Assembly (NCBI GenBank): GCA_017792345.1
Contig: CP051228.1
Location: forward strand, 992,001 to 1,056,000
DNA: 64,000 bases
DNA from: Mesoflavibacter sp.
GTDB taxonomy: Bacteria; Pseudomonadota; Alphaproteobacteria; UBA8366; Aestuariispiraceae
Reading direction: 5' to 3'
A model generated the notes under the pieces. That model saw only the letters and a list, made by a program, of their open reading frames with translations, was not told the DNA's origin and made no database searches. The translations under genes and the position numbers were made by a program. How positions within the stretch are numbered: the stretch's first letter is position 1; each line of letters starts with the position of its first letter. Of this stretch, positions 57,458-58,483 are shown piece after piece.

Positions 57458-58483
57458 ATGTCGGATTTGGCGATTGCGGGGATTTCCAGCCTGACCGCGG
57501 GCGACGAGGAACAGCTCGTCACGATGACGGTCGACAATCAGTTGTTCGGGATCCCGATCCTGCGCGTTCAGGACATCGTGGAACCGGTGCAGATCACGCC
57601 GATCCCGCTCGCTTCCTCTGCGGTGGCGGGTGTTCTGAACCTGCGCGGGCGAATCGTGACGGTCATCGACCTGCGTGTCTGCCTGGGCGCGGAACCGAAA
57701 GATCTGGACGACCGGCCGATGTCCGTGACGGTCGAACACAAGGGCGACCTCTATACGATCCTGGTCGATTCCATCGGTGACGTCCGGTCGCTGCCGCGCC
57801 GGGATCTGGACAAGCCGCCGCAGACCCTGGACCAGCGCATGCGCAAGCTGTGCTCCGGCGTGTTCCGGCTGCAGGACGATCTGCTGGCGGTACTGGACGT
57901 CGAACGTGTCCTGGACCCGACCACGATCGCCGAAGCGCCGAAGCGCCGCCCCTTGAAGCGCCACAAGACGGCGAAGAAGACCGGGCCGGGCGCCGCCCCG
58001 CGCAAGGCGGACAAGAAACCCGCGTCAAACGACGATGCGGAGCCTGGCCAAGGAAAAAAGTCTAAGGCCGCCGCGGCGCCCAAGGCCGAGGCGGCAAAGA
58101 AACCGGCAGCCGGACAGCCCAGCCTGTTCGAAAAGCTGGGCGGCGAGTTGGGCATCGACGCGGTGGTCGACATGCTGATCGCGAAGCTGGAGGCGGATTC
58201 CCGCCTCAGCCCCTTCCTGCAGGGCGCGGACGGCGCAACCCAGGCCAAACACGCGAAGGCTTACCTGACCCAGACTTTCGGCGGTCCGTCGAACTATAAG
58301 GGCCCGGACCTGTCCAAGCTGCACCGCCATCTGGTGCAGGACATGGAAATGGATGACGGCCACCTGATCGCCGTCGCCGGCTATCTGGCCGATTGTCTGA
58401 ACCAGATGAGCGTCCCGGCGGAATTGATCGACGACGTCATGGCCGCCATCGAAGAGATCCGCGACGGGGTCATGGGCCGCTGA
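57458..58483 (+). CDS. CheW-truncated haemoglobin fusion protein
   Basis: A 341-residue protein with two recognisable domains. Residues 18-155 form a CheW/SH3-like coupling domain: EEQLVTMTVDNQLFGIPILRVQDIVEP, the conserved NLRGRIVTVIDLR (61-73) and ILVDSIGDVRSLP. Residues 156-220 are a charged Lys/Ala/Pro linker. Residues 221-341 form a group 1 truncated haemoglobin: SLFEKLGGELGIDAVVDMLI, KHAKAYLTQTFGGPSNYKG, LSKLHRHLVQ and VPAELIDDVMAAIEEIRDGVM. H289 matches the proximal haem ligand and H265 the E-helix His of cyanobacterial GlbN; the usual B10 Tyr is Ile here. No other che gene lies nearby. It probably reports a haem ligand such as O2 or NO to a chemoreceptor-CheA complex. Confidence 0.9.
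   Translation: MSDLAIAGISSLTAGDEEQLVTMTVDNQLFGIPILRVQDIVEPVQITPIPLASSAVAGVLNLRGRIVTVIDLRVCLGAEPKDLDDRPMSVTVEHKGDLYTILVDSIGDVRSLPRRDLDKPPQTLDQRMRKLCSGVFRLQDDLLAVLDVERVLDPTTIAEAPKRRPLKRHKTAKKTGPGAAPRKADKKPASNDDAEPGQGKKSKAAAAPKAEAAKKPAAGQPSLFEKLGGELGIDAVVDMLIAKLEADSRLSPFLQGADGATQAKHAKAYLTQTFGGPSNYKGPDLSKLHRHLVQDMEMDDGHLIAVAGYLADCLNQMSVPAELIDDVMAAIEEIRDGVMGR

Follow-up and report, generated by a model that had tools for sequence, protein, structure and literature searches.

The window, by which we mean the whole 64,000-nucleotide stretch of DNA analyzed here, contains an open reading frame in which a CheW domain is joined through a linker to a group 1 truncated globin (trHb1) domain (Table 1). 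An earlier note made from the sequence alone had read the encoded 341-aa protein as a full CheW with an NLRGR segment fused to a truncated haemoglobin, and had proposed a domain search with the CheW and Bac_globin families and a structure prediction as checks; both bear this reading out. In Pfam, the CheW domain scores 109.5 bits against a curated cut-off of 23.5 (E = 1.3e-31) and spans profile positions 1 to 135 of 138, the C-terminal domain does score as a globin (46.3 bits against a curated cut-off of 21; E = 5.8e-12), and no third family matches the protein at E ≤ 1. A sequence search of the PDB recovered structures of CheW and of group 1 truncated haemoglobins. The AlphaFold model, built with 15 aligned rows (mean pLDDT, 71.6), has a well-predicted CheW part, a linker that is disordered at residues 167 to 219, and a helical C-terminal half of moderate confidence (block means of 56 to 85 over residues 221 to 340). 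Foldseek searches of the PDB with this model matched, on a single chain, both CheW (2ch4_Y; 1.2e-11) and the trHb1 6cii (1.1e-7; TM-score on target, 0.89; rmsd, 1.7), and the predicted globin half has TM-scores on target of 0.88 to 0.89 to 6cii, 3aq7, 1dlw, and 1dly. The gene is flanked by two minus-strand frames, by eye a hydrolase and a fumarate hydratase. A promoter and terminator scan found no sigma-70-like site, and its two terminator-like sites, against 1.4 expected, are both on the minus strand.

Table 1. Features of the CheW-globin gene, in positions of the window
Feature	Position	Strand	Evidence or remark
CheW-linker-globin gene	57458..58483	+	341 aa; open frame, Pfam, relatives
CheW domain, residues 19-153, NLRGR at residues 61-65	57512..57916	+	PF01584, 1.3e-31; Foldseek 2ch4, 6s1k
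Lys/Ala/Pro-rich linker, residues 156-219	57923..58114	+	pLDDT <50 at 167-219; dN 0.19 and 0.59 vs two relatives
Group 1 truncated globin domain, residues 222-336	58121..58465	+	PF01152, 5.8e-12; Foldseek 6cii, 1dly, 1dlw
Ile241 = B10	58178..58180	+	Tyr in 35/41 stand-alone relatives
Leu254 = CD1	58217..58219	+	Phe in 39/41 stand-alone relatives
His265, E helix	58250..58252	+	opposite E10 His46 of cyanoglobin 1s69
His289 = F8 (proximal)	58322..58324	+	kept by the window copy alone among 11 family copies
D300, H302, I304, start of G-helix region	58355..58369	+	commonest residue in 10/11, 11/11, and 9/11 family copies

Pfam finds three CheW domains in the genome, namely that of the window gene and two inside one CheA frame. 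No stand-alone CheW besides the window gene turned up, a point absent from the earlier note. The genome encodes one CheA, with Hpt, dimerisation, ATPase, two CheW, and receiver domains and with neither a P2/CheY-binding domain nor a Bac_globin match in Pfam, and 20 MCP signal domains, so that a kinase and receptors to couple are present. The earlier note is strictly correct that no cheA accompanies the gene, but one is found on the same contig at a distance of about 2.6 Mb, in a che cluster with a histidine phosphotransferase-like (HPTransfase) gene and CheY-, CheB-, and CheR-like frames (the last three by eye), where Pfam found no CheW. As the sole stand-alone CheW found, and with its globin sitting on the coupling protein itself, the CheW-globin could act on whole arrays. 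This sole status is not family-wide, as three family members (G008, G009, and G010) carry further plain CheW matches, each with a second, more distant CheA. The one other Bac_globin match in the genome is a short, separate gene with a weak score (L129:2205-2669; 30.7 bits).

Relatives of the gene and the state of the haem pocket

A search for the same two-domain order, also proposed in the earlier note, recovered the fusion in 22 of 43 genomes of the order that were compared, distributed over the window's own family (f1; 11 genomes) and two others (f2 and f3; 4 and 7 genomes, respectively). Since numerous related genomes have the fusion in open frames, some of them with shared neighboring genes, it is neither a chance event nor an assembly error. 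Named carriers include Pacificispira spongiicola and Marivibrio halodurans, both placed by NCBI in the Aestuariispiraceae, Rhodospirillales, as well as Hwanghaeella grinnelliae, Curvivirga aplysinae, and Aestuariispira insulae. In seven genomes (f4), CheW ends in a long tail, truncated in some of them by the end of the contig, where the globin profiles found no globin; the G028 frame is cut before the expected globin start. Of the remaining 13 genomes, nine gave no match to the query, one (G002) has a plain CheW, two (G017 and G041) have broken pieces, and one (G024) has weak matches. A stretch like RRPVxERWQEVLEEKAR is common to several of the f4 tails (L024, L026-L029). In the same genus, G002 (G002:C147; L033, L154) has its plain short CheW beside a more distant CheA, and G004 and G005 gave no match to the CheW-globin or CheA queries at the limits used. 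Among the matches listed in a class search of 385 genomes, none outside the order was a CheW-globin; 14 of 80 named loci carry one, 13 of them apparently records of order genomes, and the other (L040) groups with f3 in the tree. In a comparison of 20 loci (L047 and L132 being from the same genome), the hydrolase gene adjoins the CheW-globin gene in 8/8 f1 genomes, 3/3 f2 loci, and 0/5 f3-type loci, while the fumarase gene is in view, not always adjacent, in 3/8, 3/3, and 4/5, respectively.

Alignment with cyanoglobin 1s69 places His289 and His265 against the histidines at chain positions 70 and 46 and sets Ile241 and Leu254 opposite Tyr22 and Phe35, sites that we take to be F8, E10, B10, and CD1, respectively; E10 His46 is the second haem ligand of cyanoglobin. 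This confirms the proximal His, the E-helix His, and the B10 Ile described in the earlier note and adds the loss of the CD1 Phe, which it lacked. The window copy has the proximal F8 His, an E7 Gln, and an E10 His, and it lacks the CD1 Phe and the B10 Tyr.

We compared these sites across 94 trHb1 domains, each 105 aa or longer (repeats, partial matches, and the 92-aa row L220 removed), comprising 41 stand-alone domains, 23 on CheW (22 from order genomes plus L040), 26 in the P2 place of CheA, 2 in a CheA P5 domain, and 2 on receptor-type proteins. The F8 His is present in 41/41 stand-alone domains, an upper estimate since these rows are mostly better-scoring matches and so favor intact haem residues, in 12/23 CheW-fused domains, in 9/26 domains in the P2 place (4 of the 26 being gaps), and in 2/2 of each of the two smaller classes. 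The full set of B10 Y/F, CD1 F/Y/W, and F8 His is found in 35/41, 11/23, 9/26, 2/2, and 2/2, respectively. Within the window's family, F8 is His in the window copy only (1/11), Ser in its 81%-identical sister, and Tyr (5), Leu (3), or Val (1) in the other nine. On the tree, a minimum of six changes accounts for the F8 states. Most f2 and f3 copies keep B10, CD1, and F8, which makes haem binding by them plausible as judged from their residues. As the pocket is retained in f3 and some f2 copies, and the full residue set is retained in part of the CheW-fused and P2-place domains and in all P5 and receptor-type domains, the globin domain very likely entered the array able to bind haem.

The CheW part, the linker, and the globin part have dN/dS values of 0.03, 0.28, and 0.17 when compared with the 81%-identical sister and of 0.05, 0.26, and 0.48 when compared with a 69%-identical relative; dS in these comparisons is 0.7 to 2.3, near saturation. 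Because of the value of 0.48 and of this near saturation, constraint on the globin part may be moderate. The residues most consistently kept in the family are H302 and R335 (11/11) and D300, L292, and L314 (10/11), while F8, CD1, and B10 vary. As most of the former are also common in stand-alone globins (H302, 31/41; R335, 28/41; D300, 28/41; L314, 38/41), they may only hold the fold. The clearest family-specific change is I304 (9/11), which in stand-alone globins is mostly Asp (32/41). In the window's family the pocket decays while a recognizable globin domain persists.

Globin domains in CheA and in receptors

Among 68 distinct CheA frames spanning Hpt to kinase, drawn from the class sample of 385 genomes and the named loci, our own profile finds 26 (two of them from one genome, G267) with a trHb1 domain at the P2 place, flanked by the Hpt and dimerisation domains; this proportion is not a frequency, as the loci were partly chosen for the globin and the profile was partly trained on such copies. 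The degenerate copies were first detected with a profile built without them. Pfam, run on 11 of these frames, places Bac_globin over the cut-off in nine (L124, L127, L194, L195, L196, L199, L200, L201, and L208) and only below it in two (L204 and L065). Frames with an F8 His include L124:2713-5814, L127:2149-3510, L194, L196, L199, and L200. The F8-less insert of the Kordiimonas sediminis CheA, folded separately, gave a pLDDT of 85.1, and truncated globins head the list of its PDB matches, 1dlw being the best and the sole match at ≤0.001 (E = 4.1e-4). A CheA with a truncated globin between its Hpt and dimerisation domains may be an undescribed architecture.

Other placements were also recovered. 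In two families (G101 and G123; L194:1354-4953 and L195:2-2620), a second globin apparently lies inside the first P5 (CheW-like) domain. The G327 frame (L125:3471-6329) starts with a truncated globin, followed by a PAS match, and ends in an MCP signal domain; the G235 frame (L128:2516-3532) starts in the same way and is then cut by the contig end, and by its likeness to the former it is probably receptor-type. Relatives of the globin-bearing CheA P0002 on Azospirillum plasmids cover 82% of it, and the uncovered part is taken to be the globin. Among the matches listed for a phylum sample of 398 genomes are loci (e.g., G615:C275, G556:C219, and G593:C32) with adjacent trHb1 genes or with two globins in one frame (G615 and G506), many of them in family f191.

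In the locus pairs read, the globin is never in both CheW and CheA. All 15 CheA frames that span Hpt to kinase in CheW-globin genomes of the order lack a globin; a profile search found none either in a 16th (G022) that fails the span filter, and two profiles at an independent E of <0.05 found no cryptic globin in CheA of the window's order. Reciprocally, none of 22 stand-alone CheW frames (≥130 aa) sharing a locus with a globin-bearing CheA carries a globin, the other 4 of the 26 CheA frames having no such CheW in view. These counts, which are clumped by lineage and on the CheW side refer to same-locus frames rather than whole genomes, lend support, though no proof, to the view that a single globin suffices for each array core; the pattern may also be history. 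We claim neither a hop of the domain from CheA to CheW nor a single origin: 44 of the 91 inner branches in the tree of 94 domains stay open, and AU tests reject neither a single CheW clade (p = 0.578) nor a single CheA-P2 clade (p = 0.522). That G345 is the only genome of 11 in its order with a match in a CheA-size frame hints that globin insertions recur.

Possible reuse of a globin in the chemotaxis array

The earlier note had proposed that O2, NO, or redox state acts through the globin on the coupling of receptors to kinase across a whole array. The part of this proposal that concerns location stands, as the globin is on the coupling protein and no other stand-alone CheW was found; direct haem input to the window copy is, however, doubtful, because F8 is lost in 10 of the 11 family copies, including the closest one, and because the B10 Tyr and the CD1 Phe are gone here. 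The F8 His, E7 Gln, and E10 His of the window copy speak against that doubt. Haem sensing on CheW, by which His289, perhaps with His265, would bind haem and the ligand or redox state of the iron would alter CheA coupling array-wide, draws on these same three residues, on the complete residue sets elsewhere among the fused domains, and on a precedent for sensing through a CheW-fused domain, CheWS (PMC10653840). Weighed against the lost pocket residues and the F8 loss in the other family copies, it appears rather unlikely for the window copy and is likelier in f2 and f3.

That the globin half is instead a decaying passenger, a remnant of an older sensor that no longer matters, would fit its fast divergence, with a dN about eight times that of CheW against both relatives, the long f4 tails without a globin, and the gaps within the domain in some copies (e.g., L017 and L006). 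Yet the frames are open through the globin domain in 23/23 CheW-fused copies compared, the globin dN/dS against the sister is 0.17 (though 0.48 against the next relative), and some positions are kept in 10/11 or 11/11 family copies, which leaves this account improbable. Certain other globin-like sensor domains that lack haem have been reported to bind non-haem ligands, and an emptied pocket that binds another small molecule would agree with the frequent loss of F8 in fused copies and with the globin fold predicted for the F8-less Kordiimonas sediminis insert; the columns kept in at least 9/11 family copies are not B10, CD1, E11, or F8, though, and no ligand is known, so that we regard such a sensor as very improbable.

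Our favored reading, to which we give about even chances, is that the globin domain descends from a haem-binding group 1 truncated globin and now serves the chemotaxis array mainly as a module that does not depend on haem; rather than an independent oxygen sensor, it appears to be a globin reused as an array part. This reading is favored because the genome has one CheA, with no P2 by Pfam, and 20 MCP domains beside its only stand-alone CheW found, because the fusion recurs in about half of the order genomes compared (22/43) with the F8 His lost in many fused copies, because other lineages have a homologous domain in the P2 place of CheA, because the globin has a low dN/dS against the sister (0.17) and H302, R335, and D300 are kept in the family, because an F8-less insert is still predicted as a globin, and because CheW and CheA never both carry the domain in the locus pairs read. 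It is countered by the F8, E7, and E10 residues of the window copy, by the dN/dS of 0.48 with dS near saturation, by the frequency of the kept residues in stand-alone globins, and by the further CheW genes of other family members. Mechanistically, the CheW half would enter the CheA-P5/CheW rings, and the tether of about 60 residues would hang a globin domain beneath each CheW, where it could touch CheA (P1 or P4) or dock a response regulator. There the globin might take the role of P2, a domain for which Pfam has no match in this CheA, and thereby tune kinase output or array packing. If the window copy still binds haem, with His289 and His265 as ligands, the haem would serve as an additional modulator.

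More tentatively, and on balance with some doubt, the alphaproteobacterial array core might repeatedly capture a trHb1 domain, be it in the CheW tail, in the P2 place or the P5 domain of CheA, or on receptors, with one core component per array affected, then discard the haem and turn the fold into a baseplate substitute for P2, the window protein being late in this conversion. If so, a classic haem protein would have been turned into a chemotaxis array part in more than one core component, and the occupant of the missing P2 place in some alphaproteobacterial CheA proteins would be identified. The mostly intact f2 and f3 copies, the decaying family of the window, and the Kordiimonas CheA, where the haem residues are gone, would then form a natural series from a gas sensor to a structural or regulatory module.

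Comparison with known systems

HemAT-type proteins carry an N-terminal globin on a receptor-like signaling domain (PMC13401364). Both they and the CheW-globin join a globin to chemotaxis machinery, but the latter has a group 1 truncated globin, C-terminal and on CheW, and so is no globin-coupled sensor of the HemAT kind, which pairs an N-terminal sensor globin with a receptor or enzyme output domain; the Pfam domain order here upholds the earlier note's contrast between a globin on the coupling protein and one on a receptor. A likeness in architecture is offered by CheWS of Treponema denticola, a CheW with a C-terminal CheR-like SAM sensor that is modeled below the array rings, occupies those rings beside classical CheW, and is termed the first reported characterized CheW-fused sensor in its description, which also proposes CheW as a "hub" able to take inputs (PMC10653840). 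The two share a CheW with an extra C-terminal domain, and they differ in that domain, CheR-like versus globin, and in the presence of classical CheW alongside versus a sole stand-alone CheW in the genome. Figure S10 of that paper shows 30 undescribed CheW architectures, and the CheW-globin could be among them. A CheA survey reports that more than half of CheA proteins are without P2, and the word "globin" occurs 0 times in its main text (PMC10782961). Among the papers brought up by literature searches, we recognized none that describes a CheW-globin or CheA-globin. A C-terminal addition to CheW as such is already known. New as far as these searches show are the globin on CheW, the repeated loss of haem ligands, and the parallel globins in CheA.

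With group 1 truncated haemoglobins such as cyanoglobin and THB1, the window globin shares the sequence family, the predicted fold, and the F8 His, and it differs from them in being fused and in lacking the B10 Tyr and the CD1 Phe, while the other 10 family copies lack the F8 His. The alphaproteobacterial globins in the P2 place of CheA have in common with it the globin family, the kind of array, and the frequent loss of haem residues, but they sit on the kinase, between the Hpt and dimerisation domains. RsbR provides stressosomes with a globin-fold domain without haem in a large signaling complex; it and the CheW-globin are both globin folds in large complexes, in RsbR a different complex and another globin class.
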